Assembly (NCBI GenBank): GCA_029263415.1
Contig: JAJCXN010000056.1
Location: forward strand, 1-64,000
Origin: Acidobacteriota bacterium
GTDB taxonomy: Bacteria > Acidobacteriota > Thermoanaerobaculia > Multivoradales > Multivoraceae
DNA: 64,000 nucleotides
Direction of reading: 5' to 3'
Below the pieces are notes generated by a model. That model did no database searches. It was not told the DNA's origin and saw nothing but the letters and a program-made list of their open reading frames with translations. Both the position numbers and the translations under genes were made by a program. Every line of letters begins with the position of its first letter. Within the stretch, counting starts at the first letter, position 1. Positions 14,450 through 49,204 of this stretch are shown here, in pieces.

Positions 14450-17400
14450 CTATTGGTAAATCTGAAAAGCTGCCCAGTAGTAGGGGTGAACCCAGGTTCG
14501 ATCGGACGGCAGATCTGAGGCCCGTAGTCCACCCACTGACCTCGTTGTACCACCAGCTTCGTTCGTGCCTGCGTCGCCTTCGACGGCCACGGTCCTTTGG
14601 GCTGCGGCAAGGGCCACATCCGGCTCTTGACCCCGACGCAGCCGGCGATAGAAATCCACCATCAGGCCACTAGTTGCCTGATCGCTGATGCGCCACAACG
14701 ATGCGACGACCCGTCGTGCACCTACCAGTCGAAATGTACGCATTAACCCGAGCAGGCCCTCACCTTCATGGAGCCTGCCTTGGGCGGTCTCGCAGGCCGC
14801 CAAAGTCACCAAGTCAGCCACCAGGGAAAGATCCTCGGCCAGCTCCCATGCTTCGACTCGACTCGACACATTGGCTTCATCAACAGCCGCCCCACCGCTG
14901 GCGGCCAAGAAGAGCGCTGAGCCCAGCGGATCGTTGGAATCGACTGTCGCATGAACAGCTAGGTGCAGGACATTTGCCGTTGGAGCCTCCCTCAGCAAGG
15001 TGTCGAGTGTCGCGCCCTCGCCGACGAAAACGCCCGCGCCCGAAAACAGCGACGCGATCTCATTCGCCTCCCGACGCGCGCCAGGGAGAGCCGGCCAAAC
15101 CGAAGGACTGCGCGGCGCGCCTGGCGAGTCGGACAACTCGACGGTGGGATCAGCCATCACCACCAGTCGCGGCTCTTCTGGCCTTGCGATCGACCGCATC
15201 TTGTGAGGTAGCGTCGACGACTCGCCAACCAATACGAAGCTTGGCGAAGCGATCTCGACCAGGAACCGAGCGTCGTCGTTCCGATCAACGACGCGCAGCG
15301 CCCCGAAAGGTACACGGTGGAGGGGCCCATCCGGCGCAATCAACAATGGAGCGATCTGGCCCTGCTGCTCAAGACGAGCCAGGGCAGGTTGCACGAGCAG
15401 CTCCCCCAACCGACGCGACGGAGCGAGGTACTCATCGGGCAACGAGGGCAGCCGCAAGGCTTGATCATGCTGCTCGACTAAGGTTTCCAACATTCTCCGT
15501 GAAATCGGCACCTCGATGGCAGTGGCCTTTCCGTCGGGACTAAGTACCAGCAACCAAGTACTTTCCTCGCCTGTGACATAGGAAAGTCTCAACCCACCCG
15601 CTGGAACTGCGGCGGCCAACTCCTTGACCGTTGGGGCACGGGGTGTCTGCAATTCAGCCAACATGGGCGCCGCGGCTCGAAGCTCTTCGAACAGCACCGA
15701 CCGCTGCTCTCGTAGCTGCTGAATCGACGCCTCAACCGACTGGAGTGCCCCCTCTAGACCCTTATCTTCTCTAACATCCTGCTTCTCTGGCGCCCGCTCT
15801 TCAGCCTCAAATGCGAACTGGGCGCGAGCAGCATCGCGCCGAGCCGATTCCCGCTCAAGAAGCGTCCGATTGCGGACTAACCGCGCACGCAGATCAGACG
15901 GTACTGCTGCCGACAGGTCGACGAAACGCTCGGCGAGTTGGGTGCGCAGCGACTGCCCTCGGAGTCGTTCCATGACCTCGATCGCGCGCCCGGCCTTGCC
16001 GCCTCTTGCTAGTACATCAGCGCACAATCGGTAGATCCTGACGTGGGCCTCTCTGAACGTCGTTCGATCGTCCTCCCACGCGCCGCTCGCTAAGGTCAGG
16101 GACTCCAGCTGATCCGTCGCACCGCAGATCAGGCTTTCGGCCGTTGCGATGTCACCTTGAAGTCGCAACACCTCCCCAAGGAACGAAGAAGAGCGCGCCG
16201 CCTTCGCTGACTTCGGAGCGAACCTCAGATTCCAGTCCAAGGACTCATTGATGACGGCTTTGGCGGCCTCGAGCCGACCAGCCTCAACCTCGATCTCCGC
16301 CAATCGAGTGAGTGCCGAGGAAACATTCACCGACGAATTCAACGACCTATAGCGCTGCAAAGCACTTTGAGCCTTCGCACGTGCTCCATCGAGATCTCCC
16401 GAGCGCCGAAGTCCGGCCGCCTGTTCATGCTCGATGAACGCTAGGTATGTGCCGTCGTCGGGCTGATGTTCAAGGAGTTCTTCCGCTTGCCGCAGCAACG
16501 CCATACCGCCCGGAAGGTCGCCCCGCAACTGAGCGAGCTGCCCCATGTGCGCAAGCAGCAGCGCCTCAGGGCCCCCTTCAGCTAGCGCCTGGTCATACTC
16601 GACTGCGGCCCGATCGTAGTCGCGACGGTTGTAGTACAGCTTGCCAAGGGCCTCGTGAGCGTCAGCCAACCTACGACTCTCAGGCGGCTCGTTCTCCGCA
16701 AGCTCGACGACCCGTCGGAGCACTACCTCAGCTTCATCGAACCGACCCCGGTTCTTGAGCACGGCACCAAGGTTAGCCAGCGATGCCCGAGCGGTATGCC
16801 CGTCCGGCACGAACTGAAGATCAAGTGCGACCGCACGTTCCAAATAGTCTTGCGCCGCCACCAGGTCGCCCTGGAAGAACGCAAGTGCACCTAGGTTGTT
16901 GAGCGACTTCGCGAATCTGGGGCTCGGCGCTCCGGATGCCTCAAGCAAATCCTGGGCCTTGGCGAAGAGTCGGTGCGCACCATCGAGGTCTCCCTGGCGG
17001 GCGGCCAGAACCCCTTCAGTGCTCAGTTGATCAACCAAGACGCGCGGTGGCGGCTCGGAGTTCTCGAGCAACCTCCGGGCTGCCGCCAGGTCATCCGCCG
17101 CTGCCCCGAAATCCCTCTTGTCCAGAGCCAACCGTGCCAGCGTCTGATGAATCCTTGCGGTCACCAACGAGCTTGGATCCTCATCGTCCAGCGCGGCACG
17201 TGCCTTTTGCAACCATGCGGCTGACGCGGTGGCGTGACCCGCATCTCGGCCCACGCGCGCAAGGGCGACGAAGGCGCTCGCGATTGTGTTCGAAGAGGCT
17301 TGCGCTAGCTCGAACCAAATCACGGTTGAATCAAGAATCGACCGCGCCTCGTCGTAGGCGCCCTGATCGCTTAGCCGTGCTCCGAGCAGGTGCCCCAACT

Positions 17401-17758
17401 GCCCGCGCCAACGATCCAGTTCGGTCGAAATCGCAGCCAGTGATGGGTCATCAGCGTTCAAGCGAAGCACACTGAGGTCTTTGATGGCCCGGTCCAGGAG
17501 CGTTGCCTCTTCATCCCAACGCCCGGCGCGCGCGGCATCGGCGGCCTGAATCTCCAACTGGCAAACTGGTGCGATGTGCGGCCTCAACTGCGCGTTCGCT
17601 GCCAAGTAGCCCTGCAAACACAAATCGCTAGAAGCGCCCGCGGGCGCTTTGGACCAAGGAGGCAGTTGAGCTCCGGCGCCCGGCGCCAGAGAGGCGCAGC
17701 ACATCAGTAGAAGCGTCGCTGGGCCTATGCCGTCCCCCGACCTTTTGATCTTGATCAT
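14450..17758 (-). CDS. Exported TPR-CHAT domain protein
   Basis: About 1102 residues. From ATG 17758 the N-terminus is a signal peptide (MIKIKRSGDG, then IGPATLLLMCCASLAPGAGA); an ATG at 17803 would add 15 basic residues. A long alpha-helical region carries repeated TPR motifs (for example SLNNLGALAFFQGDLVAAQD, DAHEALGKLYYNRRDYDRA), then a coiled-coil part with LRGQSLRTQLAERF. The C-terminus is a CHAT caspase-like protease domain: His in LHLAVHATVD (~936) and Cys in VTLAACETAQG (~989), followed by GARRVVASLWRISDQAT and HPYYWAAFQIYQ. Both catalytic residues are present. CHAT proteins are usually cytosolic, so export is unusual. The substrate is unknown. Confidence 0.85.
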   Translation of the reverse strand: MIKIKRSGDGIGPATLLLMCCASLAPGAGAQLPPWSKAPAGASSDLCLQGYLAANAQLRPHIAPVCQLEIQAADAARAGRWDEEATLLDRAIKDLSVLRLNADDPSLAAISTELDRWRGQLGHLLGARLSDQGAYDEARSILDSTVIWFELAQASSNTIASAFVALARVGRDAGHATASAAWLQKARAALDDEDPSSLVTARIHQTLARLALDKRDFGAAADDLAAARRLLENSEPPPRVLVDQLSTEGVLAARQGDLDGAHRLFAKAQDLLEASGAPSPRFAKSLNNLGALAFFQGDLVAAQDYLERAVALDLQFVPDGHTARASLANLGAVLKNRGRFDEAEVVLRRVVELAENEPPESRRLADAHEALGKLYYNRRDYDRAAVEYDQALAEGGPEALLLAHMGQLAQLRGDLPGGMALLRQAEELLEHQPDDGTYLAFIEHEQAAGLRRSGDLDGARAKAQSALQRYRSLNSSVNVSSALTRLAEIEVEAGRLEAAKAVINESLDWNLRFAPKSAKAARSSSFLGEVLRLQGDIATAESLICGATDQLESLTLASGAWEDDRTTFREAHVRIYRLCADVLARGGKAGRAIEVMERLRGQSLRTQLAERFVDLSAAVPSDLRARLVRNRTLLERESARRDAARAQFAFEAEERAPEKQDVREDKGLEGALQSVEASIQQLREQRSVLFEELRAAAPMLAELQTPRAPTVKELAAAVPAGGLRLSYVTGEESTWLLVLSPDGKATAIEVPISRRMLETLVEQHDQALRLPSLPDEYLAPSRRLGELLVQPALARLEQQGQIAPLLIAPDGPLHRVPFGALRVVDRNDDARFLVEIASPSFVLVGESSTLPHKMRSIARPEEPRLVVMADPTVELSDSPGAPRSPSVWPALPGARREANEIASLFSGAGVFVGEGATLDTLLREAPTANVLHLAVHATVDSNDPLGSALFLAASGGAAVDEANVSSRVEAWELAEDLSLVADLVTLAACETAQGRLHEGEGLLGLMRTFRLVGARRVVASLWRISDQATSGLMVDFYRRLRRGQEPDVALAAAQRTVAVEGDAGTNEAGGTTRSVGGLRASDLPSDRTWVHPYYWAAFQIYQ

Positions 17759-18455
17759 CAATGAATTATGACTCCTCGAGGTGCGCTTTCGCGGTCGAGA
17801 CATTTCCGGATCCGAAACTCACCCGAGCTTCGAGCAACCTGCCACGACTTCGAGGCTTGGGCAAAGCGCGTCTAGAGTCGATCCACTGAGCACTTTCTCA
17901 CACTTGTGCCAAGAACGAGATGGCGCTCCAAGGGACGAGACCTAGCTCCGTCGGCCCTGTGCTCTCAGTAATTCCAAACGGCAAATGCAAAGACGCACAT
18001 GGGCACGCACCGGGTAGTCAAAGCGAATGGTCTGCAGCTCAGCCGCAGCTGGGATTGTTGAGGCTCGACTCCGAAGCAACGTGCGATTCCCTCCACTGGG
18101 AGTCAGAGCAATCGACCGCCTACTTCACGCAGCAGGAGACTTCTGTGCCCCGATTGCTCGCGTGATCGCTTACGCCAAAGCCTTCACTCCGTTCTCGTCG
18201 TTCGGCCGTTGGCCAGGCATCCGCACAACCACACCAAACAAGCGCCAGCTACTCCGCCGTAGTGGTGGCCCGTGGCTTCGCATCAAGAGCAGAGAACCAC
18301 CCTGCAACAGAGACATTGTGTGCGGTGCCAGCGTCCTTGGCGTTGAAAGTCCCGTAGCGAGGGCCCGATTTCCGGGCTCACACATCACTAAGGAGGCGCG
18401 TCGTCCGTCCGGCGTTGTTGCACTTTTAGGTGACGAAGAATTCAGGAGACTCACT
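17759..18455. other. Intergenic stretch, nothing recognised
   Basis: About 700 bp upstream of both the CHAT gene (leftward) and a lipoprotein gene (rightward), so it should contain two divergent promoters. An open frame from 18027 runs into the lipoprotein gene, but its upstream part is Arg/Pro/Ser-rich without motif or ribosome-binding site. Confidence 0.4.
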
Positions 18456-26429: not shown

Positions 26430-26517
26430 GAAGGTTGAATATTCGTATGCTAGGAAACGTCAGATACCGTCTCTACGCTGACTCGTCCTGTGCCATATCC
26501 CGACCGAGGTAAACGTG

Positions 26518-27465
26518 ATGATCGCTAGTCCTTCAGTCTTCTCAGGTTGCATTCCAGCCCTCATGACGCCGTGTGACGCTCAGGGTCGGCCAGACTTTGA
26601 CGCGCTGGCTGACAAAGGTGTGGAGCTGATCGCAAAAGGCATGCGAGCCGTCGTCTATTGCGGATCCATGGGTGACTGGGCGCTGCTCGACGACGCGCAA
26701 CGCATGCAAGGCGTCGACCGCCTAGTCGCTGCGAAAGTGCCGACGATCGTGGGAACGGGAGCACAAAACACCAAGCGAGCGGCGGCGATCGCGTCACATG
26801 CCGCCAAGGTTGGGGCCGATGGGCTAATGGTAATACCCCGTGTGCTCTCGCGCGGGACTTCGCCGGCCGCTCAGCGGCTGCACTTCGCGAGCGTCCTTGA
26901 TGCAGCCCAAGAGCTTCCCTCGGTCATCTACAACAGTCCCTACTATGGATTTGAAACCAAAGCCGATCTGTTCATGCAGCTCCGCAACCGTCATGCGAAC
27001 CTGATCGGGTTCAAAGAGTTCGGCGGCGCCGCCTCTCTGTCCTACGCCGCTGAGCACATCACTAGCGGCGACCCAGAACTGACACTGATGGTTGGCGTCG
27101 ACACACAGGTGGTCCATGGGTTCGTGCGCTGTGGGGCTGTTGGCGCGATCACCGGGGTCGGGAACGCGCTGCCCGGGCCGGTCTTGCGGCTCGTTGAGCT
27201 CTGCGAGCAGGCTGCCGAAGGCAATGCCGAATCGTTGCGTCTCGCAAATGAACTCGACGGAGCACTCTCCGTACTATCGACGTTTGACGAAGGGCCTGAT
27301 CTGGTCCTCTACTACAAACACCTCATGGTGCTGGAAGGTAGCGAGGAATACGGTCACCACCTCAACCCGGAAGATCGGTTGAGCCCACAACAGAAAGCGT
27401 ACCTAGAGGCCCAGTGGAAACAGTTTCGGGGTTGGTGGGACAGTTGGCTCGGCGCCAACACCTAA
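26518..27465 (+). CDS. hypD: 1-pyrroline-4-hydroxy-2-carboxylate deaminase (DapA family)
   Basis: A 315-residue TIM-barrel of the dihydrodipicolinate synthase/N-acetylneuraminate lyase family. The Schiff-base lysine is K166 in NLIGFKEFGG, and the catalytic tyrosine Y138 is in SVIYNSPYYGF. In hydroxyproline breakdown the enzyme deaminates and dehydrates pyrroline-4-hydroxy-2-carboxylate to 2-oxoglutarate semialdehyde. The pathway role comes from the operon: epimerase, FAD dehydrogenase and semialdehyde dehydrogenase follow at once (6-bp gap to the next gene). The ATG at 26518 (GAGG nine bases upstream) or the GTG codon before it is the start. On sequence alone it could be another DapA-family enzyme. 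Confidence 0.85.
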   Translation: MIASPSVFSGCIPALMTPCDAQGRPDFDALADKGVELIAKGMRAVVYCGSMGDWALLDDAQRMQGVDRLVAAKVPTIVGTGAQNTKRAAAIASHAAKVGADGLMVIPRVLSRGTSPAAQRLHFASVLDAAQELPSVIYNSPYYGFETKADLFMQLRNRHANLIGFKEFGGAASLSYAAEHITSGDPELTLMVGVDTQVVHGFVRCGAVGAITGVGNALPGPVLRLVELCEQAAEGNAESLRLANELDGALSVLSTFDEGPDLVLYYKHLMVLEGSEEYGHHLNPEDRLSPQQKAYLEAQWKQFRGWWDSWLGANT

Positions 27466-27471
27466 ACGCCT

Positions 27472-28425
27472 ATGAAGATGCATGTCATCGACTCGCACAC
27501 CGAAGGCGAACCGACCCGAGTGGTACTAACAGGCGGACCCGAACTGGGCGAAGGCCCGTTATGGGAACGTCGCCAACGATTCGCCGATGAATACGACCAT
27601 GTTCGGCGCCGTTTGATTCTTGAACCCCGAGGCTCTGAGGCAATGGTCGGCGCTCTACTCTGCGAGCCCACCCGTGACGATTGCGACGCGGCAGTGATCT
27701 TCTTCAACAACGCGGGGTTTCTTGGCATGTGTGGTCATGGGATGATCGGTGTCGCAGTGACGCTGTCGTACCTGGACCGACTCTCACCCGGTGAGATCCG
27801 AGTCGAAACTCCGGTAGGAGTGGTCGCAGTCGAGCTGACTAGCCCCAATGAGGCAACCGTTGAGAACGTGCCAAGCTACTCCTACCTCCGCGACGTCACC
27901 GTGCAGGTGGAGGGCCTGGGTGAAGTCACCGGCGACGTGGCCTGGGGTGGGAACTGGTTCTTCCTGACTGAGAATTCTCCGTGCGAGATCGTACTGTCGA
28001 ATGCCCAAGAACTGACGCGTGCGGCAAGCAGCGTCCGTACATCCCTGGCCGAACAAGGAATCACCGGCCCTAACGGAGAAGAGATCGACCACATCGAGTT
28101 CTTCTCTGCGCCCGGGGAACCAGAGGCACCAGAAGTACTACAAGCGCACAGCCGCAACTTTGTTCTCTGCCCCGGCAACGCATATGACCGATCACCCTGT
28201 GGCACTGGAACCAGCGCCAAACTTGCCTGCCTGGCTGAACGCGGCGCACTCGCTGCGGGCGAGACATGGGTGCAAGAGAGCGTGATCGGCAGCCGGTTCG
28301 TGACCAGCTACCGCACCAATGATGCTGGTGAAGTCATAGCTAGGATCTCGGGGCGTGCCTTCATCTGTAGCGAGAGCACACTGGTGTGGCAACCCAACGA
28401 CCCCTTTGCCAACGGAATCGCTTGA
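27472..28425 (+). CDS. hypE: 4-hydroxyproline 2-epimerase (proline racemase family)
   Basis: A 317-residue proline-racemase-fold protein. Both catalytic acid/base cysteines are present: C87 in GFLGMCGHGMIG and C243 in SPCGTGTSAKLACL. That argues for a two-base epimerase rather than the Thr-containing 3-hydroxyproline dehydratase branch. It would convert trans-4-hydroxy-L-proline to cis-4-hydroxy-D-proline, the first step of the pathway. HVIDSHTEGEPTRVV at the N-terminus is typical. It is cytoplasmic, six bases after hypD and two bases before the dehydrogenase gene. Proline racemase activity is the main alternative, but the neighbours favour hydroxyproline. Confidence 0.9.
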   Translation: MKMHVIDSHTEGEPTRVVLTGGPELGEGPLWERRQRFADEYDHVRRRLILEPRGSEAMVGALLCEPTRDDCDAAVIFFNNAGFLGMCGHGMIGVAVTLSYLDRLSPGEIRVETPVGVVAVELTSPNEATVENVPSYSYLRDVTVQVEGLGEVTGDVAWGGNWFFLTENSPCEIVLSNAQELTRAASSVRTSLAEQGITGPNGEEIDHIEFFSAPGEPEAPEVLQAHSRNFVLCPGNAYDRSPCGTGTSAKLACLAERGALAAGETWVQESVIGSRFVTSYRTNDAGEVIARISGRAFICSESTLVWQPNDPFANGIA

Positions 28426-28427
28426 CT

Positions 28428-29678
28428 ATGTCATCGAGCAGCGACGTGATTGTGATTGGCGGCGGAATCGTCGGTATTGCGTGCGCGCACTACTTAGCCA
28501 AGGAAGGCTATGGCGTCACGGTGATCGATCAAGCCACCATCGGGGCTGGTTGCTCACACGCTAACTGCGGCTTCGTCTGTCCAAGCCACGTGTTGCCGCT
28601 GAACGAACCGGGCGCTATTGGTGACGGGATCAGATCCCTGCTTAATCCCAGCGCAGCGTTTCGAATCAAGCCGCAACTGCGGCCAAACCTCTACCGGTGG
28701 TTGTTCCAGTTTGCTCGGCGATGCACCCATCGCAAGATGCTCGAGTCTGGGGCCAACCTTTTGCCCCTATTGGAGTCGTCGATCGTCGAGTACCGGACGC
28801 TTGACAGCGAACTCCGCTCTGCCGGCGAGTGGAAAGAAAATGGATTGCTCTACGTGTTTCGCTCAGAAGCGGGCCTCGACAAGTTCGCGCACACTGATGG
28901 TTTGCTCACCGAAAACTACGGCGTTTCTGCGCGGCGGATCGATGGTGCCGACCTACCAGAGTTCGACTCAGCCTTGAAGCACGGCTTGGCAGGCGGTTTC
29001 TTCTACCAAGACGATGCCTCTGTGCGACCCGACAAGCTGATCCGCAATTGGAGTACTCACCTCGCAGAAGCAGGTGTTCGTTTTGTCGAGCACTGCCAAC
29101 TTGAAGGCGTGCACCGATCTGGAACCCACATTTCGGAACTCCACACCTCAACGGGAACCATGACAGCACAGCAGTACGTCATTGCTACCGGAGCTTGGTC
29201 AGGCGAACTGTCTGCACAGTTGAACTGTCGCCTACCGATCGAGCCCGGCAAGGGCTACTCAGTCACCATGAGTCGGCCTGAGCGCTGCCCAGAGCACCCG
29301 ATGCTATTCCCTGAACATCGCGTTGGTGTGACTCCGTTCGAGGATAGCTATCGCATTGGTTCAATGATGGAGTTCGCAGGTTTCGACACCACCATACCCG
29401 CCCGAAGAATCCGCCAACTCCGCGATTCGGCGGCCCCCTACCTCGAAGCCACGACCGCAACTGCCACCGAAGAGACCTGGTATGGATGGCGACCCATGAC
29501 GTGGGACAGCCTGCCGGTGGTAGGCCGAATTCGAGGGCTGGATAACGCACTCGTCGCGACCGGTCACAACATGCTGGGATTGACGTTGGCGCCAGCGACC
29601 GGTCGATTGATCGCGGAGCTGGCGTCAGGCCAACCCACCCATATCGGCATCGACGCATTCTCACCAAACAGATTCTGA
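28428..29678 (+). CDS. hypO: D-hydroxyproline dehydrogenase (FAD-dependent DadA/DAO family)
   Basis: A 416-residue flavoprotein from ATG 28428, chosen because it follows the upstream stop by two bases. The N-terminal dinucleotide-binding motif is DVIVIGGGIVGIACAHYLAK. The C-terminus has WYGWRPMTWDSLPVVGRIRG and LVATGHNMLGLTLAPATGRL, the DadA-type FAD-contacting end. In this operon it would oxidise cis-4-hydroxy-D-proline to pyrroline-4-hydroxy-2-carboxylate, passing electrons to the respiratory chain or a carrier. It is a single-subunit form rather than the three-subunit type found in some pseudomonads. Confidence 0.87.
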   Translation: MSSSSDVIVIGGGIVGIACAHYLAKEGYGVTVIDQATIGAGCSHANCGFVCPSHVLPLNEPGAIGDGIRSLLNPSAAFRIKPQLRPNLYRWLFQFARRCTHRKMLESGANLLPLLESSIVEYRTLDSELRSAGEWKENGLLYVFRSEAGLDKFAHTDGLLTENYGVSARRIDGADLPEFDSALKHGLAGGFFYQDDASVRPDKLIRNWSTHLAEAGVRFVEHCQLEGVHRSGTHISELHTSTGTMTAQQYVIATGAWSGELSAQLNCRLPIEPGKGYSVTMSRPERCPEHPMLFPEHRVGVTPFEDSYRIGSMMEFAGFDTTIPARRIRQLRDSAAPYLEATTATATEETWYGWRPMTWDSLPVVGRIRGLDNALVATGHNMLGLTLAPATGRLIAELASGQPTHIGIDAFSPNRF

Positions 29679-29693
29679 GTAGCCTAGGCTACT
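29678..29693. promoter_or_regulatory. Perfect 16-bp palindrome between hypO and hypH
   Basis: AGTAGCCTAGGCTACT begins at the last base of the hypO stop codon. With no room for a loop it is more likely a protein-binding site than a terminator. It lies 53 bp before the aldehyde dehydrogenase start and could mark an internal regulated promoter. Confidence 0.4.
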
Positions 29694-29745
29694 TTCCCCA
29701 CCTGTCACTAGACACCCCAACTGCCCCTACACGGACGGAGCCCAA

Positions 29746-31257
29746 ATGCTAAATGGACAACACTTGATCGCAGGAGAATGGGTGACTGGAGAAGGAGAAC
29801 TCCGTTCGAGCCCCGCCACTGGCCCGTCTCACACGTTCTCGAGCGGAACGGCCCAGATCGCAAACCAAGCGGCCGACGCTGCCGCAGAAGCGTTCAAAGT
29901 GTTCGGGGTCAGTAGCCGGTCCGAGCGAGCGACCCTGTTGCGCACAATCGCAGCGGAGCTCGAAAAGAACTCAGGCGAAATCGTCGAACTGGCCAGTGGT
30001 GAATCTGGTCTTCCAGTCGGGCGCATTCAAGGTGAGCTGGGCCGAACCACTGGGCAACTCCGGCTCTTCGCTGACCACATCGAAGACGGCGACTACCTCG
30101 ACCGCCGCGTTGCCAATGCCCTACCCGAGCGTGAACCCTTGCCGCGTCCCGAGCTGAGGACGATGATGCGGCCGCTCGGGCCGGTTGCCGTCTTCGGAGC
30201 CTCCAACTTCCCACTGGCCTTCTCCACCGCAGGCGGGGATACCGCGGCAGCGTTGGCAGCTGGGTGCCCTGTCGTCGTCAAGAGCCATCCTGCACATCCG
30301 GGCACCGGCGAACTCGTCGCACAGGCCGTCCTAGCCGCCATGCGAGAGACAGGAACCCATCTCGGGACCTTCTCCTTTCTCCAAGATGCTGGTCACACCG
30401 TAGCAACGTCTCTAGTTCAGCATCCGGCGATCAAGGCAGTTGGCTTCACCGGCTCGTTGACCGCAGGACGCATCTTGTTTGATCTTTGTGCAGCGCGAGC
30501 TGAGCCAATACCCTTCTTCGGAGAACTGGGGTCTATCAACCCCTGCTTCGTTCTGCCTACCGCGCTTGCGACCGGCGCTACTCGCATTGGAGCTGAGTGG
30601 GCCGCTTCACTAACACTCGGCGCAGGTCAGTTCTGCACCAGCCCGGGCGTGATGTTCGTCGTTGATGGGGATGGAGCAGATTCCTTCATCGAAAGCACGC
30701 TGGCTGCGCTGGGCCAGGTCGACAAGCAGACAATGCTGACAGACGCGATCGCGAGTACTTTTCGCACGGGGGCCGAACGGCTGGCTGGAACTGACGGAGT
30801 GCACAGACGATTCGGAGAGCAATCCTTCCAAAGATCCGTGACCCCCTACCTCTTTGAAACAGACGGGGAAACGTGGAATCGCCATGCCGAACTCGCAGAA
30901 GAGGTCTTCGGCCCCTTGGGCATTGTCGTGCGCACTCGATCGTTCGACGAGCTGCTCGCCTGTGCCCAGTCTTTGAGCGGTCAACTGACGGCTACCTTGC
31001 ACTTCGAGCAAGCCGATGACGAAGCCGCCTTGCAACTCTTGCCGGTACTCGAACACAAGGCCGGCCGCCTCCTGGCCAACGGGTTCCCTACCGGTGTTGA
31101 GGTTGACCCTGCGATGGTGCACGGTGGCCCCTATCCCGCGGCCACCAACCCCGCAGCCACGTCGGTGGGCACGTTAGCCATTCGCCGTTTCTTGCGCCCG
31201 GTGTGCTATCAAAACCTGCCTCAACGGTTGTTGCCAGCGGATCTACAGGACGCCTAG
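29746..31257 (+). CDS. hypH: 2-oxoglutarate semialdehyde (2,5-dioxovalerate) dehydrogenase
   Basis: A 503-residue aldehyde dehydrogenase. It has the oxyanion-hole Asn154 in FGASNFPLAFS, cofactor Lys179, general base Glu260 in FFGELGSINPCF and nucleophile Cys297 in GAGQFCTSPG. The GELGSINP and LGAGQFCT signatures belong to the 2-oxoglutarate semialdehyde dehydrogenase group. It oxidises the deaminase product to 2-oxoglutarate with NAD(P)+, feeding the TCA cycle and completing hydroxyproline degradation. It is separated from hypO by 67 bp, so it may have an extra promoter. The same enzyme could serve sugar-acid breakdown, but no such genes are nearby. Confidence 0.9.
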   Translation: MLNGQHLIAGEWVTGEGELRSSPATGPSHTFSSGTAQIANQAADAAAEAFKVFGVSSRSERATLLRTIAAELEKNSGEIVELASGESGLPVGRIQGELGRTTGQLRLFADHIEDGDYLDRRVANALPEREPLPRPELRTMMRPLGPVAVFGASNFPLAFSTAGGDTAAALAAGCPVVVKSHPAHPGTGELVAQAVLAAMRETGTHLGTFSFLQDAGHTVATSLVQHPAIKAVGFTGSLTAGRILFDLCAARAEPIPFFGELGSINPCFVLPTALATGATRIGAEWAASLTLGAGQFCTSPGVMFVVDGDGADSFIESTLAALGQVDKQTMLTDAIASTFRTGAERLAGTDGVHRRFGEQSFQRSVTPYLFETDGETWNRHAELAEEVFGPLGIVVRTRSFDELLACAQSLSGQLTATLHFEQADDEAALQLLPVLEHKAGRLLANGFPTGVEVDPAMVHGGPYPAATNPAATSVGTLAIRRFLRPVCYQNLPQRLLPADLQDA

Positions 31258-31376: not shown

Positions 31377-32462
31377 TCAGCGACAGATGGTCCTTTGGGG
31401 AGCACCGGAAAGAGCCAGTGATTCGAGAATGCGATGCTCCTTCGTGCGGACTGCTTCGCAGATCAACGTGGTTGCGGTGTATGCAGGCTGCCGTGGCGGA
31501 GTGCTTGAATTCTTCTGAGTTTCGAAACTCAGCAAAACCACATCGCCCGATGGCACCGTCAATTGGGCTGCGATTGCATAGCGAGAAGAGAAGATGCGTC
31601 CCGCAATCGACTCCCTGCCTTCTCGGTCGAGCGCGACCGAGAGTTCGGTGATCTCAAGCACACCGCGGAGAGCTGAATCTTTGGCCTCAACGCCTATCAC
31701 GGTCAGGTCTTCGTGCAGAGCGTCTAGCTGTTCGCGAACGCTGTGATCGAAATCTGCGGGAAGCTGCACTCCAGCTCCAGGTCGGATGGTGAGTTGCAGC
31801 TCGATTTCCGGTTTGTGGAGAGCCGGTGCGACGAACTCCATTGCGCGATCCAATCTGATCGCCTTGAGGCCGGGTTGATCGGTCTGGATGCGCAGAAGAA
31901 GAGCGACGGGTTGATTGTTGATGGTGACAGTAGAACCGCTGTATCCACTCCTAATAACGGAATCCCTGGGGTCTAGAACGACCAGTTCGGTCTCAACCCG
32001 GCTCACAAAGACCCTGTTCCGCTCGAGCACGTCGAGGGCTTGAGTGAGAACCACTGCTTCCGCACTAGAACCCAGCAATTTGGCGACCGGCACAGGATCG
32101 ATAGTAGCTCGTGCACATTCCGGGCTCGGGTCTAAGCGAAGCAAACTGAGGTCAGTCTCATGCTCCGCGTCAGAGGCGATCCCTGCACCCAGAGTCCAGA
32201 AAGGCTCGCCCGTCGCCCGACGGCCACTGGGAAAGGTGACCTCGAACTCCGAGTAGAACGTGTCGAGGACGTGGGCAGGAGCAAGAACGAAACACTCTTG
32301 ACTGGTACCGATCGCCAGGCCGTGTCCCGACGTCTGGCCACCAGCGATATGGACGGGAATGGTCTCCGCTAACGCTTGCGTGGCAAGGCCGGCCAACACG
32401 ATGACAGCCAGGGTCGAGGGGCGGCCAATGCGTTTCAGTCGGTTCTTCACTCTAGGGCTCAT
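31377..32462 (-). CDS. Exported trypsin-fold serine protease, fourth gene of an envelope operon
   Basis: About 361 residues from ATG 32462 (a GTG at 32477 adds five). The signal peptide is STLAVIVLAGLATQALA. The N-terminal half is a chymotrypsin-like domain: H64 in FVLAPAHVLD, D104 in ETDLSLLRLD and S175 in IRSGYSGSTV, an intact triad with Tyr replacing the usual residue before Ser. The C-terminal ~160 residues form an extra domain with no recognised family (VREQLDALHEDLTVIGVEAK, VALDREGRESIAGRIFSSRY). The start overlaps the preceding gene by 11 bp. Partner genes are a two-TM protein and two exported proteins, suggesting a periplasmic sensing/proteolysis module. Target unknown. Confidence 0.72.
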   Translation of the reverse strand: MSPRVKNRLKRIGRPSTLAVIVLAGLATQALAETIPVHIAGGQTSGHGLAIGTSQECFVLAPAHVLDTFYSEFEVTFPSGRRATGEPFWTLGAGIASDAEHETDLSLLRLDPSPECARATIDPVPVAKLLGSSAEAVVLTQALDVLERNRVFVSRVETELVVLDPRDSVIRSGYSGSTVTINNQPVALLLRIQTDQPGLKAIRLDRAMEFVAPALHKPEIELQLTIRPGAGVQLPADFDHSVREQLDALHEDLTVIGVEAKDSALRGVLEITELSVALDREGRESIAGRIFSSRYAIAAQLTVPSGDVVLLSFETQKNSSTPPRQPAYTATTLICEAVRTKEHRILESLALSGAPQRTICR

Positions 32463-33732
32463 TTGCTTTTCCGCCACTAAGACGATGGCGGAAGGTGGCG
32501 AAGTTGATCAGCAACGCAAGAATGCCGGTAACCAGCGGCGTGATGGCGACAAAAAGCTGGGACAAGCGGTCGCTCCTCAAGAACTCGGTGAGTGTGAGTC
32601 GTGGAAACAGGAGCCAAGCACCGGGCCGTCTGATCTCCACCATCTCCCCGAAATACCGAGCATCCGCGGGCGCACAAGGACCAGCAGATGCTTGGCTGTC
32701 GGCGGAGCCCTGAGTGACTCGTGCGACTAAGCCGATAGCCTCACCATCGACCAACCGCAGCATGCCGCTCACGGCGCCTTTGAGTACCAGCTGCTCGCCC
32801 ATCATCACATCCGTCCTCTTGAGTTCGTGTCCTTGTCTGTTGGCTTTCCAGCCTTGTCTGAACGCGACCGTTCCACCAATGAGATGGTGTCGCCATTGAG
32901 CAGCGTTGGTGGCCGAATCTCCCACCTGTAGACACGTCGCGTCGAAATAGAACGCCAGGTTGCCACGTGATCCCTCTTGCTCCTTGATGTCCACTTCGAA
33001 GCTAGAAATCCGGGGTCCCGTCGTACTGTCCTTGCTGTCCTTGCTGTCCTTCGTGTCCTTGCAGTCCTCTTTGGCTTCCGTGGAACCAAGCGCCGGTTCC
33101 GGCTCTGGCTCAACGTTCTCACTCTGAAGAGTTGCGCTCTTGCAGTCAGCGCACGGTCTGCATTCCACTTGCAAATCCCCGCCGTCAGTCGCGTTCGAGA
33201 TGATGTCTAGCAATAGAGGACCGCCCGCCGTCTTGCTCAGCTCAATACGGGACTGGTCGGGGATATGCACAAAGACATCCTCGCCCGAACAAACGGACCC
33301 CAGCGAAAAATTCGACGGACCACACTCACCCCAACCCGTTTCGTCCGTCCAATCATCCTCGGCTACCCCCCTAACGTCGTTCCCCAGGAACCACAGCTGC
33401 TCGCCCTCGACCTCAATCCGCGCGAACTCGGTCTCGACAGTCGCCACATAGCTACGGATGGCTGTGCAGTATCGGTGCAACAGCATCCCGGTGAGTGTGG
33501 TAGCGGCGATACCAGTGATCAAGAGGTAGCCGCCAGTGCGCCGCTTGGCTGCCGGAATCTCGCCAACCCGGGTTCTCAGCTGCTGATAGGACTGAGTCAG
33601 CAGGTGCACTACCGCCCGGCCCAGGCGAGCCACGACCGACGTGATCTTGATCGCAGCAGAACTACCGAACCGGCGTGCAACACGCAACGCTCGGTTGGCC
33701 CGGGTACGCCACGAAGGGGTGGTCTGATTCAT
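32452..33732 (-). CDS. Two-TM membrane protein with large periplasmic domain and KDS-rich linker
   Basis: A 426-residue protein. The basic N-terminus (~65 residues) is cytoplasmic; TM1 is ~68-86 (YLLITGIAATTLTGMLLHRY). A periplasmic part of ~280 residues consists of two beta-rich regions (ARIEVEGEQLWFLGNDVRGV and GNLAFYFDATCLQVGDSATN) joined by a charged linker with PEPEPAL and KDTKDSKDSKDS. A C-terminal TM is SQLFVAITPLVTGILALLIN. Several CxxC-like cysteines (ECRPCADC) could bind metal or form disulfides. No family was recognised. It is translationally overlapped with the protease gene downstream, so the two products probably work together at the membrane. Confidence 0.6.
   Translation of the reverse strand: MNQTTPSWRTRANRALRVARRFGSSAAIKITSVVARLGRAVVHLLTQSYQQLRTRVGEIPAAKRRTGGYLLITGIAATTLTGMLLHRYCTAIRSYVATVETEFARIEVEGEQLWFLGNDVRGVAEDDWTDETGWGECGPSNFSLGSVCSGEDVFVHIPDQSRIELSKTAGGPLLLDIISNATDGGDLQVECRPCADCKSATLQSENVEPEPEPALGSTEAKEDCKDTKDSKDSKDSTTGPRISSFEVDIKEQEGSRGNLAFYFDATCLQVGDSATNAAQWRHHLIGGTVAFRQGWKANRQGHELKRTDVMMGEQLVLKGAVSGMLRLVDGEAIGLVARVTQGSADSQASAGPCAPADARYFGEMVEIRRPGAWLLFPRLTLTEFLRSDRLSQLFVAITPLVTGILALLINFATFRHRLSGGKANEP
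33026..33066 (-). repeat. 9-bp coding tandem repeat
   Basis: The unit CTGTCCTTG occurs at 33026-33034 and 33035-33043, then with single changes at 33044-33052 and 33053-33061, and partly after. Read on the minus strand it encodes repeated Lys-Asp-Ser. Slippage would change linker length in threes of codons without breaking the frame. Confidence 0.85.
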
Positions 33733-33802
33733 GCTAAGTCACCGATCAGCCGTTGCCCAAAAACACCACAGGGAAGGCGGCTTGTACGAGACCCAAGCCG
33801 CG

Positions 33803-34678
33803 TCACCGTTGCCCTCCCCCCGTGGGGCTGGGCTCGCAGCTAGGCGAAGGGAATCTGATGGCTATCGGTGGAACAGAGTCCACACGACGACCGGCACGAA
33901 AGCGTACCTGGACCTCGTCGTTGCAGTACCAATCACCCGTCGCTTGGTCAGGACTCAACTGGCATCGATGCGAATATCGATTGAAGTCTAGCCCCGAGAG
34001 TTCGAAGCAGTTCACCGGTGTTCCTACCCGTTGCAAGCGAGCTTGGCTGATGCCGGCCGTGACGCCATTCACCAGCAGAACCAGTTCGGACAGCGTCGCG
34101 CTTCCCAGCTCCGTCGCAGTCGCTTCGGCCTCAACCCAAACCACGGGAAGCAACACAGGCGATGCCTTGGCGCCCGACTCAATGCTTCCGCAATCTGTCG
34201 AAGCGATGGCGAGAACTCGCACTGCGAGATCATCTGGCTTGTACCTACCCAGTCTCTGCTTGAGGCTCTCTCTGCTAGCTGCCCTCCGTGGTTTTGGCAG
34301 CTCAAGCCTTACCCACTGACCCTCTGCCTTTGGGGGGCCCAATAGGTGGTACGGGCCTTCCCCTCGGTAGGCACCTTCCTTCGAAGTAACGAGCGCGCAC
34401 AGTGTCTTGAAACCCGCTGGAACGAAGGCGACCACTTCGTGCGATCGGTTGGCAGCGACGTTGGTCGTTGTGAGATAGGCACCTCGCAGGGCCCCGACGG
34501 AAGCCACTGGAAGTTCTTCTAGGTAATGCGCTTCAAACGAGGCCTCAAGCAGTATCGGGGGATCCTCTGCCACAACGATGCTGGGGGTGATCATGGTCAC
34601 CAACAAGGCTGCGCGAATCAACGGTGGCCTCGCGCATCCAGCTACCTTGAGGGATCTTGAGGGCTGCAACGTGCCCAT
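33803..34678 (-). CDS. Exported protein of unknown function, second gene of the envelope operon
   Basis: About 291 residues from ATG 34678, one base after the upstream stop; an in-frame start at 34699 overlaps that gene. A signal peptide is formed by ARPPLIRAALLVTMITPSIVVA. The mature protein (PPILLEASFEAHYLEELPVA, NRSHEVVAFVPAGFKTLCAL, LVLLVNGVTAGISQARLQRV) has an Ig-like beta pattern and four or more cysteines near the C-terminus (NCFEL, RCQLS, WYCNDE). No family was recognised. It is separated from the two-TM protein gene by 70 bp on the same strand. Confidence 0.55.
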   Translation of the reverse strand: MGTLQPSRSLKVAGCARPPLIRAALLVTMITPSIVVAEDPPILLEASFEAHYLEELPVASVGALRGAYLTTTNVAANRSHEVVAFVPAGFKTLCALVTSKEGAYRGEGPYHLLGPPKAEGQWVRLELPKPRRAASRESLKQRLGRYKPDDLAVRVLAIASTDCGSIESGAKASPVLLPVVWVEAEATATELGSATLSELVLLVNGVTAGISQARLQRVGTPVNCFELSGLDFNRYSHRCQLSPDQATGDWYCNDEVQVRFRAGRRVDSVPPIAIRFPSPSCEPSPTGGGQR

Positions 34679-34679
34679 T

Positions 34680-35480
34680 TCAAATGACCCCAAGTTCAAC
34701 TACCGTGCTTCGGCCGATGTCCTTGGTCTGTTCAACCAGTCGACACGAGCTAGTTGTCGCATTCACAATGAAGCACTTGAGGGAACCAATGGGTCGTTTG
34801 TGCAGAATGATCTGACCACTATCAGGGTGTGGAATGCGTTCGAACTCCACTGCTGTCAGTGTGCTGCGTTTGGACAGCCCATCATTCTTGCCCAGATCCA
34901 CCACCAGTTCATCTCCTCGGCTTTGCACCACCATGCCCTGGGCGGGCAGCTTACGGCGAATGGATACCTCCAGCCGCTTAACTGCCGCCTCGATCGAATT
35001 CATCTCCTTGAGCTTCACTTTTCGCAACAGTGCGTTGAAGGCTCCAGCAGTGGTCAAGACATGCTCAACATTGCCGCCCAAATCGACCAAGCGAACGGTG
35101 ATTCCGTACTGCTCTAGCGGCTCTCCGTCCTTTTCTCCGATCTTGAATTCGTAGGAGATCAGTCCTTTGTAGGCAGCAACTGTAATCTCGGGCGCATCGA
35201 GCGTGCCAAGGGTTTCTCCGAGAATTCTCTCGTCGATCACCCGCTTGAGTTCTTTGCGCTCGACCGTCTTTGCTCGTCCCGATTGTTCAAAAGCACGAGT
35301 GACCGCGTTCAGTACGCGAGTGTCGCGTTGATGCCTGCCTGGGCTTTCGAGCTCGAGACTCAGGATTCGTGTTTGGCCAGGCGCTGCGCCCGCAAACGCA
35401 ACTATGAAAAGAAGCCCAAACGCAGCCCGCAGTTCGAGCGGGACTTTGTGTAGGTCTAACCGCCATGTGCGACACGTCAT
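34680..35480 (-). CDS. Exported CsgG/FlgT-like protein, first gene of the envelope operon
   Basis: A 266-residue protein. The signal peptide is LRAAFGLLFIVAFAGAAPGQ. The next region (LNAVTRAFEQSGRAKTVERK, ELKRVIDERILGETLGTLD, YKGLISYEFKIGEKDGE) follows the CsgG/FlgT middle-domain pattern: a conserved ER/RK..L..VL-type helix, then strands. The C-terminus (GMVVQSRGDELVVDLGKNDG, then RSTLTAVEFERI) resembles the SH3-like FlgT C-terminal domain. Relatives act in outer-membrane secretion (CsgG) or flagellar motor assembly (FlgT). No curli or flagellar genes are nearby, so a role in a distinct envelope complex is suggested. It heads the four-gene operon. Confidence 0.6.
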   Translation of the reverse strand: MTCRTWRLDLHKVPLELRAAFGLLFIVAFAGAAPGQTRILSLELESPGRHQRDTRVLNAVTRAFEQSGRAKTVERKELKRVIDERILGETLGTLDAPEITVAAYKGLISYEFKIGEKDGEPLEQYGITVRLVDLGGNVEHVLTTAGAFNALLRKVKLKEMNSIEAAVKRLEVSIRRKLPAQGMVVQSRGDELVVDLGKNDGLSKRSTLTAVEFERIPHPDSGQIILHKRPIGSLKCFIVNATTSSCRLVEQTKDIGRSTVVELGVI

Positions 35481-35847
35481 GCCTTAGACCCCCTGGGCCG
35501 TCGAAAGGTGAGCGAGCGAAGCATTCCATTGTTCCAATCTTGATTGGCAGTATAACCCTGGCGAGCAAATGGACAATTGGCAGCGACTGCCAGAGTCAAG
35601 ATCAAAAGTGCTGTTGACCGCGGTTTGCCGCGAGGCCTAAGGGCGAATACGGGCAGTACGGATCGTGGTGATGGGTAGGAATGGTACCCATCCCGATGCC
35701 CGTTCCCCTACCCGTGCAGAGTTCACCACGCTGCCACGCTCACTGAGCCAACCTAGATAGGTCGTGCTGTCCTCTCACCTACAGTATCGTTGCAGCACGA
35801 AATCCAAAACGCGGCACCCGCGGCGGTTCTTGACGAAAAGGCGATCG
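35481..35847. other. Divergent intergenic region with inverted repeat
   Basis: This gap separates the divergent envelope operon and HTTM gene and should hold both promoters. GATGGGTA (35670-35677) and TACCCATC (35685-35692) form a perfect 8-bp inverted repeat with a 7-base spacer, a possible operator. There is no T-run, so a terminator is unlikely. Confidence 0.4.
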
Positions 35848-45801: not shown

Positions 45802-48639
45802 CTAGCGACCAACCAACTGACGTCGAGCGAGCGCAACCTCGACCCGCTCGTGCAGAGGCAGAGCTTCGAACCGCGCCAGCTGCTTCCTGAGGTCAGCAGC
45901 AGAGCCTGGCGCCAGCCCGTAAGCAGCGCGCGCGCGAAGAAAGGAGAGTTCTATGACGATCGGATGCTCGGCCGGCATGCTTCCTGTCGCATCAAAGAGT
46001 GCCGTTTCCGCGACTTCGAGAGCGCGTGGGAAACGGCCGTGGGCAAGCAAGAGTTTGATCAACATGGCCCGAGCTCGGCTGGGATAAGGGTCATCGCCGC
46101 CGACACGAATCCGGTCGAGGGCTGAGACTCGCTTCTCGGTAGTGTCAATCGATGCCGAAAGGTCCAAAGGACCGCCCGCGCGCCCGTTCATGTAGGCAAT
46201 CTGGATCTCAATGTAGGACTGATTGCGCTCGTCCACGGGAAGATTCGATCGCAAGCCTTCGAACAGTTCTGTCGCCTCCCGGTAGCCCCCAGCGAGCCCG
46301 GTCAGCATCGCCAAGTTGCGAGCCGAGTTCACTGTCGCCCGCGAGCCCTCTCCGTACAGAGATCTCAAGAGACCGACCGACCGGCGAAACGCCTCGAGCG
46401 CCTCGTCGATCTCACCCATCCGCGCGAGGTGTTCACCGACGGTATTGAAACTGCGCGCAACAGCGGCCGAGTCACGACCGAACACGCGCTCCTGACGTTC
46501 GATCAAATCGCGCAATACCGGAAGACTTTCGGTGCGCGGCAGGAGCGTCGAAAACACATGGAGCGCGTCGAGCGTTTCAGGGTGATCTCCTCCGAGTGAT
46601 CGTTGCAGAATTGGTAGCGCTCGTTCGATGTCTGTGCGCGCGGCGGCGACCATGCCCGCCCACTTCCGAGCTTCGGCGCGCTGATCGAGGGCGCGAGCCA
46701 CCTCTATGGAGTCGTCTCCGAACGCTCCTTCTAGAACCAAAAGAGCACCATCAAGTAGAGGCAGAGACTCGGTGGGCTCGAGTGCGGCCACGAAGTCGAC
46801 CTCGACCAGGGCGGTCAGCGGGTCCCTAACACCATAATGTCTCCGATGGTTCTCGACAGACGCGCGAAGAAGTTCGGCGCCTCTAACTCCATCCACCGCG
46901 ATCGTGGCTCTTGCCACCGCATGATCGAGTTGCAGCTGTTCTGAAGGCTCGGCACCTGCGATTCGCCTCGCCGAAGCAGCTCGTTCTAGGAAAGCAACGG
47001 CGCGCTCGCCTTCGTTGCGACCGGCGTGGATTCTCCCCAAAATTCCAAACAACTGCGTTTGCAGCTCAGGATCCTCCTGCAGCGAATCAACAGCCGCTTC
47101 AACCCGCGCTAGAAACTCAGAAACCGGGATCTCATCTCCTACCGCGCCGGCTCTCGGATCTGCGGTCCCAAAGAGTCCAACTAAGGCGCTCACAACCCGC
47201 TCAGATCGTTCGGTCTGTGCTGTCGCTGTCGCTAGTGCCCGTTGGGCGCGGCCAGTCTGCACGGCCAGAAAACCGCTCAGAACTGACAGTGAAACTAGAA
47301 CGGCGGCTGCAACTACGACGGCCAGGCGATTGCGCCGCAACAACACCCGCAGTCGGTAGTTCCAAGTGTCGGGCTGCGCGAGCACCGCCTCTCCTCTTTG
47401 GAAGCGAGCAATGTCCTCGCCGAACTGACCGGCGGACGCGTATCGCCGCGAGACATCGATGTGCAGCGCCATCGCGCCGATGCGCTCAAGATCCCCTTCG
47501 AGCAGACGGCGCAATCGATCGCGAGTGGTGTCGCGATGAGATACTGCGCTCGCGGTCGCTGCAGTGGTCCACTCCTGCGTCAGAATTTCTGCTAGCCGCC
47601 GAGGAGTTCCGGTTCGAACCAGGCGCTCATAATCCGCGGCAGAACCCGAGCGTTCAAAGGGCGGCGAGCCCGTCATCAGCAGATAGTAGAGGACACCCAG
47701 AGAATAGACATCGGTAGCAGTGGTCAACGGCTCGCCGGCGTACTGTTCGGGGGCCGCAAACAGCGGCGTCATTGGCCGAGCGCTGGTTCGCGTTTCCAGG
47801 GCTGAAATGTCCAAGCGCGCCGGCTCGATCAACTTGGCGATACCGAAGTCGAGCAGTTTCACTTCTGGCTTGCCCGCTTCGCGCTCCACCACCATGATGT
47901 TCCCGGGCTTGAGGTCGCGATGAATGACCAAGCGTGTGTGCGCGAACTGGACCACATCGCACACCGTGCGAAAAAGTTCCAAACGCTCATCGACACCCAA
48001 ACGGTGATGGTCGCAATAGTCGGTGATCGGTTGGCCGTCGACGTATTCCATGACCAAGAACGGTCGACCATCGTCCATGCTGCCAGCATCAAGCAACTGA
48101 GCGATCCCCGAATGCTGCAGCTGAGCAAGCACTCGGCGTTCGAGATCGAAGCGGCGCAGAAGGTCGGCCGAAGCCTTCCGATCGGCCACGCCCATCAGTT
48201 TGATGGCCACCTTTCGATGAAACTGAGCATCATCGCGCTCAGCAAGATAGACCTCGCCCATGCCACCGCGCCCGAGCAGTTTCGTGACTCGGTACGGTCC
48301 GATCCGTCGACCAGCCAAGGGCGTTAGGAGTTCGGAAGTCTGCAGAGCCGGCGCTTGAAGCGGTTGGCCGGGCGCAGGAGCCTCAGGTAGCAGCCGTTCG
48401 ATCGCCAAGCCAGGCTCATCTTGCGAAGCAAGCATGGTCCTAACCTCTTCTTGCAAAGCCAGATCATCGGTGGATGAAGCCAGAAAGGCGGCGCGCTCCC
48501 CCGGTCTTTGTTCAAGCGCCCGAAAGAACAGCTGTTCAATCTGGTCCCAACTCGGCTCGCCCGGTGCTCCCGTCACGGATCTGGCACGGTGCCGGTCAAG
48601 GCGCCTGGCCCGCTTGTCCCGCGTCAAGGTCGGCGCCAT
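45802..48639 (-). CDS. Membrane-bound Ser/Thr protein kinase with periplasmic TPR region
   Basis: A 945-residue protein. Residues ~30-80 (WDQIEQLFFRALEQRPGERA) are the short N-terminal domain typical of acidobacterial/planctomycete kinases. Residues ~115-390 are a Hanks-type kinase with GRGGMGEVYLAE, catalytic Lys147 (VAIKLMG), HRDLKPGNIMV (Asp242), DFGIAK and APEQY, all intact. A transmembrane helix follows (LAVVVAAAVLVSLSVLSGFL), then ~450 residues of TPR-like repeats outside the membrane (GGYREATELFEGLRSNLP, RMGEIDEALEAFRRSVGLL). Its start overlaps the ECF sigma gene by 44 bp. Signal sensing by the TPR region and control of the sigma factor's regulon are inferred from this standard pairing. 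Confidence 0.9.
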   Translation of the reverse strand: MAPTLTRDKRARRLDRHRARSVTGAPGEPSWDQIEQLFFRALEQRPGERAAFLASSTDDLALQEEVRTMLASQDEPGLAIERLLPEAPAPGQPLQAPALQTSELLTPLAGRRIGPYRVTKLLGRGGMGEVYLAERDDAQFHRKVAIKLMGVADRKASADLLRRFDLERRVLAQLQHSGIAQLLDAGSMDDGRPFLVMEYVDGQPITDYCDHHRLGVDERLELFRTVCDVVQFAHTRLVIHRDLKPGNIMVVEREAGKPEVKLLDFGIAKLIEPARLDISALETRTSARPMTPLFAAPEQYAGEPLTTATDVYSLGVLYYLLMTGSPPFERSGSAADYERLVRTGTPRRLAEILTQEWTTAATASAVSHRDTTRDRLRRLLEGDLERIGAMALHIDVSRRYASAGQFGEDIARFQRGEAVLAQPDTWNYRLRVLLRRNRLAVVVAAAVLVSLSVLSGFLAVQTGRAQRALATATAQTERSERVVSALVGLFGTADPRAGAVGDEIPVSEFLARVEAAVDSLQEDPELQTQLFGILGRIHAGRNEGERAVAFLERAASARRIAGAEPSEQLQLDHAVARATIAVDGVRGAELLRASVENHRRHYGVRDPLTALVEVDFVAALEPTESLPLLDGALLVLEGAFGDDSIEVARALDQRAEARKWAGMVAAARTDIERALPILQRSLGGDHPETLDALHVFSTLLPRTESLPVLRDLIERQERVFGRDSAAVARSFNTVGEHLARMGEIDEALEAFRRSVGLLRSLYGEGSRATVNSARNLAMLTGLAGGYREATELFEGLRSNLPVDERNQSYIEIQIAYMNGRAGGPLDLSASIDTTEKRVSALDRIRVGGDDPYPSRARAMLIKLLLAHGRFPRALEVAETALFDATGSMPAEHPIVIELSFLRARAAYGLAPGSAADLRKQLARFEALPLHERVEVALARRQLVGR

Positions 48640-49204
48640 CTAGCGCGGCAAAGCCAGAGACCTCTTTGCGCAACCACGCTCGAGCGGCAATCCAGTCTCG
48701 ATGAACAGTCCGCACGGTCACTCCGAGGTGCGCCGAGATTTCCTGTACCGAGAGTCCGCCAAAGAAACGCAACTGAACGACGTTCGCGGCTCGCTCACTC
48801 ATTGTCTCAAGCCGTTCCAACGCCTCATGCAGACCGAGCACCTCTTGTGATTCTTGGTCGCTCAAGAAGGCCGTCTCTTCATCCAATGGCAAGGCCTCCC
48901 GACCGGCTCCGCGCTTCTCTCGCGATCGCGCGCGGGCATAGTCCACCAACACTCTCCGCATGGTCACCGCAGCGATCGCCAAGAACTCTGTTCGATCCCG
49001 CGCCTCGAGTCTGCGTTGCTTGAGCATGCGCAGATATGTCTCGTGAACCAGCGCAGTGGAGGTCAACGTGTGGTGCTGGCGCTCCTGTGCTCGACGACTG
49101 ATGGCTAGCTGCTTTAGCTCGTCATAGAGCAACGGCAGCAGCTCGTCTAACGCTTGCTGGTCACCGCCGTCGAGTCGGCGGAGCCATTCGGTGACTTCGG
49201 GCAT
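48596..49204 (-). CDS. ECF-subfamily RNA polymerase sigma factor (kinase-linked type)
   Basis: A 202-residue sigma factor. Sigma2 region is LPLLYDELKQLAISRRAQER and STALVHETYLRML with ATMRR-like VTMRRVLVDYARARSREKRG. Sigma4 HTH is LRFFGGLSVQEISAHLGVTVRTV and HRDWIAARAWLRKEV. This matches the ECF type that is encoded next to Ser/Thr kinases instead of an anti-sigma factor. The kinase gene begins inside its 3' end, so the pair is co-translated. The sigma factor is probably activated by phosphorylation or recruitment by that kinase (family knowledge, not seen here). Confidence 0.9.
   Translation of the reverse strand: MPEVTEWLRRLDGGDQQALDELLPLLYDELKQLAISRRAQERQHHTLTSTALVHETYLRMLKQRRLEARDRTEFLAIAAVTMRRVLVDYARARSREKRGAGREALPLDEETAFLSDQESQEVLGLHEALERLETMSERAANVVQLRFFGGLSVQEISAHLGVTVRTVHRDWIAARAWLRKEVSGFAALDGADLDAGQAGQAP

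Follow-up and report, generated by a model that had tools for sequence, protein, structure and literature searches.

We identified four open reading frames, A to D, on the minus strand of the window, the whole 64,000-nucleotide stretch analyzed here, in a genome of 6.9 Mb (60 contigs, 99% complete). The genes and features of the locus are as follows.

34680–35480, minus strand: gene A, 266 aa; exported, putatively CsgG/FlgT-like; first gene of the operon, outside the conserved core
33803–34678, minus strand: gene B, 291 aa from the ATG at 34678; exported; core component
32452–33732, minus strand: gene C, 426 aa; inner-membrane protein with two TM segments and a large beta region on the periplasmic side; core component
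33026–33068, minus strand: KDS linker repeat of C, 9-bp tandem unit, 4.8 copies, TRF score 65
31377–32477, minus strand: gene D, 366 aa, GTG start; exported trypsin-fold serine protease
32271–32273, minus strand: codon of catalytic His69 of D, kept in 18/18 operon copies
32151–32153, minus strand: codon of catalytic Asp109 of D, kept in 18/18 operon copies
31938–31940, minus strand: codon of catalytic Ser180 of D (GYSGS), kept in 18/18 operon copies and missing from two solo copies

The coordinates and tight spacing given in the initial annotation were confirmed, with gaps of 1 bp between A and B and 70 bp between B and C and an overlap of 26 bp between C and D, or 11 bp if D begins at the ATG at 32462. 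The operon is flanked upstream by a divergent HTTM gene (35764, plus strand) and downstream by a convergent dehydrogenase gene ending at 31257 (plus strand), so that A to D reads as a single transcription unit. A weak promoter-like match was found at 35576–35549, and the 2 such matches, against 1.0 ± 1.1 expected, are not above chance. The proposal that all four products are exported or membrane-bound was confirmed, with N-terminal signal-like segments in A, B, and D and a hydrophobic segment at residues 393–411 of C. The second segment of C, near residues 67–89, is weaker; it lies below the hydropathy cut-off of 1.6 and matches TM1 of the C homologues. A chance gene cluster was considered for the operon and rejected, as was recent acquisition judged by composition (GC 58.1% vs. 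59.2%). Downstream, an apparent hydroxyproline catabolic cluster (26515–31257) encodes dihydrodipicolinate-synthase-like and proline-racemase-like proteins, an FAD oxidase, and an aldehyde dehydrogenase.

Searches of A to D against Pfam and NCBIfam returned nothing useful, no PADLOC family matched at E ≤ 1, and A and D as single sequences gave nothing useful against the PDB. Single-sequence searches within the family and phylum of the window also gave almost no matches, and profiles were required. The first lead was one distant D match in another genome, beside B-like and C-like genes. A Vibrio tubiashii copy from the plasmid search, with D, B, and C adjacent, led to copies in Pseudoalteromonas, Tistrella, Cereibacter sphaeroides, Vibrio sp. 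09022, Rhizobium leguminosarum, Rhizobium sp. Pop5, and Bosea. Bacteroidota copies were identified in Flavivirga and Lutibacter, and five loci came from a scan of genome contigs with a profile built on a 5-row alignment.

B, C, and D are adjacent in the window and in 17 further loci examined, spanning Acidobacteriota, Pseudomonadota, and Bacteroidota. As a less biased test of this linkage, a search with the B profile alone recovered six loci (G377, G659, G1051, G1066, G182, and G263), and C and D adjoin B in 6/6 of them; the core therefore consists of three genes. Two of these, G182 and G263, come from a single genus, are true Acidobacteriota, and have the B-C-D order of the window. Among plasmid records, D was present in 14/14 that were positive for B, and in the sole record found by D only (Bosea), B and C adjoin D. 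The conserved unit is thus B-C-D and not the four genes together, whose joint conservation would have supported the initial annotation, A being missing from the other copies except for a divergent LpoB/FlgT_C-like gene in Flavivirga; the refuting outcome named there, that the genes are usually scattered, is excluded for B-C-D. In leave-one-out profile searches, window D scored 68 bits, window B 36.9 bits, and window C 7.9 bits (0.2 bits for the reversed control), which makes window C the most divergent of its family and the weakest by sequence; its membership in the family is supported mainly by position, topology, and alignment.

The module is rare, patchy, and mobile. We counted it in 2 of 398 Pseudomonadota, 4 of 318 genomes in the class of G377, and 4 of 247 Acidobacteriota, and among 296 Bacteroidota searched it occurred in the center genome itself only. 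Within the window's own family, none of the searched members had the module; C was not found in 59 searched relatives of the same family and order, nor were B and D in the sampled relatives of the same family and order. Many copies are plasmid-borne, including that of the standard laboratory strain Cereibacter sphaeroides 2.4.1 on plasmid pC, and searches of phages and viral contigs gave no match. In the Cereibacter plasmids CP047035, CP047041, and NZ_CP015214, B aligns in two pieces, which suggests frameshifts in B or sequencing errors. Deep nodes of the concatenated tree have low support, so no transfer route is claimed. The secure Acidobacteriota members are the window, G182, and G263. A further copy (G075), on a contig of the Acidobacteriota MAG OFTM137 (L011:1–5650), may be a binning contaminant, as the LepA encoded there looks alphaproteobacterial.

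D is indeed an exported protease of the trypsin fold, and its triad is intact and strongly conserved. The protease domain spans residues ~1–215 and a lineage-specific C-terminal domain residues ~219–366. The earlier claim of an intact Ser/His/Asp triad was borne out by His69, Asp109, and Ser180, and these residues together with the cysteine pair (Cys62/Cys121) are invariant in 18/18 operon proteases. Two D homologues that lack B and C have lost the catalytic serine; given the intact triad of the operon copies, catalysis and partnership appear coupled. One of these solo homologues, in a Bacteroidetes MAG (L024:1304–2455), has Cys in place of Ser (KFDCGT) and keeps the His, the Asp, and the Cys pair; in the other (L023:2423–3073), Ser is lost entirely. 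The D profile matched DegQ/DegP chains in the PDB (best E 4.5e-6), and the Pfam Trypsin_2 domain was matched by 5 of 12 D relatives, window D alone scoring below threshold. No PDZ domain was found in window D or in ten relatives, other domains filling the C-terminal position.

The region after the protease domain varies by lineage, with SH3_3, ankyrin, beta-sandwich repeats, an unrecognized type in the window, and in some D proteins what reads as a discoidin-like domain. Pairwise hhalign comparison of six C-terminal regions gave <1% probability between lineages, and a C-terminal domain common to the window and Flavivirga was rejected on the same measure (<1%). The C-terminal region is conserved less than the protease domain in 5/5 compared pairs, and its repeats have been duplicated recently in Vibrio sp. 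09022 (93–99% between repeats) and Lutibacter (91%). The Vibrio sp. 09022 protein (L016:8549–10549) carries four such repeats with 93–99% protein identity and up to 99% DNA identity, a very recent expansion. The C-terminal domain is thus swapped between lineages, and its variability and duplication pattern would fit a targeting or recognition domain.

B is exported, with a conserved "SxDGxY" motif and C-terminal cysteines. An AlphaFold2 model of a relative's B (pLDDT 69 from 4 sequences) gave weak Ig-like matches with Foldseek and VIA-align, and B probably consists of tandem Ig-like domains. Proteins of family C have an N-terminal and a C-terminal TM segment with about 220–280 residues between them, and their positively charged ends suggest that both termini are cytoplasmic. 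The KDS linker of window C is repeat-encoded, as had been proposed, and it is private to the window genome: it is missing from 17/17 other C proteins, so that the mechanism is unlikely to depend on it, and variable linker length is no trait of the family. The homologues further suggest that the periplasmic part of C is one interrupted region, not the two domains on a functional hinge that had been read from the linker. For the low-confidence AlphaFold2 model of a relative's C (pLDDT 67, 4-sequence alignment), no fold match from Foldseek or VIA-align could be trusted. Rhizobium sp. Pop5 encodes a fusion protein in the order C, an additional hydrophobic segment, D, and ankyrin repeats, and no other observation hints as strongly that C and D might act together.

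Gene A is missing upstream of B in the relatives and is not part of the core. The CsgG/FlgT likeness proposed for it is weakly supported: A has no match in Pfam, the CsgG, LpoB, and FlgT_C profiles included, and it gave a weak match (E 0.0022) to L006, a protein with the Pfam assignment CsgG+FlgT_C, and an hhalign E of 0.0017 at a probability of 16%. In Flavivirga, the divergently encoded LpoB/FlgT_C-like gene adjoins the module core and apparently forms an operon with a DUF6175 gene (L022:5876–7635). A CsgG/FlgT-like helper may thus mark a second flavor of the module, based on two loci. In 10 of 13 Pseudomonadota-type loci, an extra exported gene, X, lies beside the core. No X was detected in the genome of the window, and A as an X homologue was rejected for lack of similarity and because X is missing from that genome.

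We consider it somewhat probable that the products of the operon form an accessory periplasmic proteolysis complex tethered to the inner membrane, with B-C-D as its core, for which a non-housekeeping role is likeliest. In such a complex, C would anchor D and hold it in place on the periplasmic side of the inner membrane, and B would be a soluble periplasmic partner that acts as an adaptor, a sensor, or an inhibitor. The target or site would be picked by D through its exchangeable C-terminal domain (SH3, beta-sandwich repeats, ankyrin, or discoidin-like), A in the window or X in most Pseudomonadota would serve as a lineage-specific helper, and an envelope cue would lead D to cut a target protein. 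A non-housekeeping role, such as defense against invaders or competition, is the likeliest because of the patchy spread, the carriage on plasmids, and some defense or recombinase neighbors. Several loci, including the window, sit among ordinary metabolic genes, and defense genes adjoin only a minority; a defense role is plausible.

A more specific form of this explanation, which we regard as tentative, is that B-C-D with X or A is an envelope immune or competition system, in which D, as a membrane-tethered effector or activating protease whose recognition domain is rapidly exchanged, would sense or destroy incoming phage, plasmid, or rival proteins in the periplasm before they reach the cytoplasm. 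Carriage on plasmids and mobile elements and the swappable, repeat-duplicating C-terminal domains of D are consistent with it, as are Upx (256.6 bits) adjoining the Bosea copy, a type IV restriction enzyme (682 bits) upstream of the Pseudoalteromonas copy, and recombinase genes on both sides of the Vibrio p09022A copy. However, the core genes match no PADLOC model, and neither the window operon nor most other loci have recognized defense genes beside them. The Bosea gene that matches the PADLOC Upx model (L020:8179–11892) also shows a weak Mrr-type nuclease domain. DegS-like signaling, in which periplasmic cleavage of C by D would free a cytoplasmic signal, seems unlikely: C extends into both periplasm and cytoplasm, its gene overlaps that of D or is fused to it, and the nearest solved structures are HtrA proteases, but the cytoplasmic tails of C are short and without a known domain, no conserved sigma factor or regulator lies nearby, and D has no detected PDZ domain.

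We hold it improbable that the locus serves secretion or surface assembly, with a CsgG-like A and periplasmic helpers building or exporting something that D matures. The resemblance of A to CsgG/FlgT and the LpoB/FlgT_C protein adjoining the Flavivirga core speak for such a role; A, however, lies outside the conserved core, no conserved gene for a secreted substrate was identified, and no curli or flagellar genes, including csgA, csgB, csgE, and csgF, were recognized by eye among the window open reading frames. Ordinary periplasmic quality control by a housekeeping protease of the DegP kind, its operon being a product of chance, is disfavored and likewise doubtful. Its Trypsin_2 domain does relate D to DegQ/DegP, but the module occurs in about 1–2% or less of sampled genomes, D is constantly linked to two novel genes, and the D profile does not match the HtrA paralogues of its own genome at E 0.01, D itself being single copy there.

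The view of the locus as a self-contained envelope module outside any known system stood up in Pfam, NCBIfam, PADLOC, and the literature searched. B, C, and X matched no informative family in the libraries searched, and a literature search did not find a description of the module. B-C-D is a real cross-phylum three-gene envelope protease module unmatched in these sources, and it is new in that it matches no listed system; its mechanism is one that we infer. Conserved operons that recur across phyla and on plasmids, with families unknown to the libraries, are where new biology was found, and this module adds an intact periplasmic protease whose exchangeable domains may do the targeting; few systems of immunity or competition are known to work in that compartment.

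Like the HtrA proteases DegP, DegQ, and DegS, the last of which is membrane-anchored, D has an exported trypsin fold with a His/Asp/Ser triad, but it differs in lacking a detected PDZ domain and in having a conserved Cys pair and the constant neighbors B and C. The trypsin-MBL pairs of Hachiman, AVAST, and Lamassu, with proteases fused to defense enzymes and standing behind an MBL gene (PMC12799240), share with the module a trypsin-like protease whose gene context is mobile and swappable, whereas D is an exported protein linked to B and C. No MBL gene was found beside the window operon among its open reading frames, and D has no defense enzyme domain in Pfam or PADLOC. The V. tubiashii copy is followed after 145 bp by a downstream gene for an MBL-fold protein (L012:12258–13535), which recalls these pairs; D is exported there as well. 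The Trypsin/Trypco conflict systems (PMC7159879) likewise combine a trypsin peptidase with partner genes and variable domains, but no vWA, MoxR, STAND, or EAD partners were recognized here, and the components are exported or membrane-bound. To the CsgG/LpoB/FlgT family, the likeness is confined to window A and a Flavivirga neighbor gene; an A-type gene is not conserved with the core, and curli or flagellar partners were not recognized. Elsewhere in the window, we identified a large exported TPR-CHAT-type protein (14450–17803), a possible second protease of the conflict-system kind, and a gene for an ECF-like sigma factor that precedes one for a serine/threonine kinase with a TPR-like C-terminus (45802–49204).
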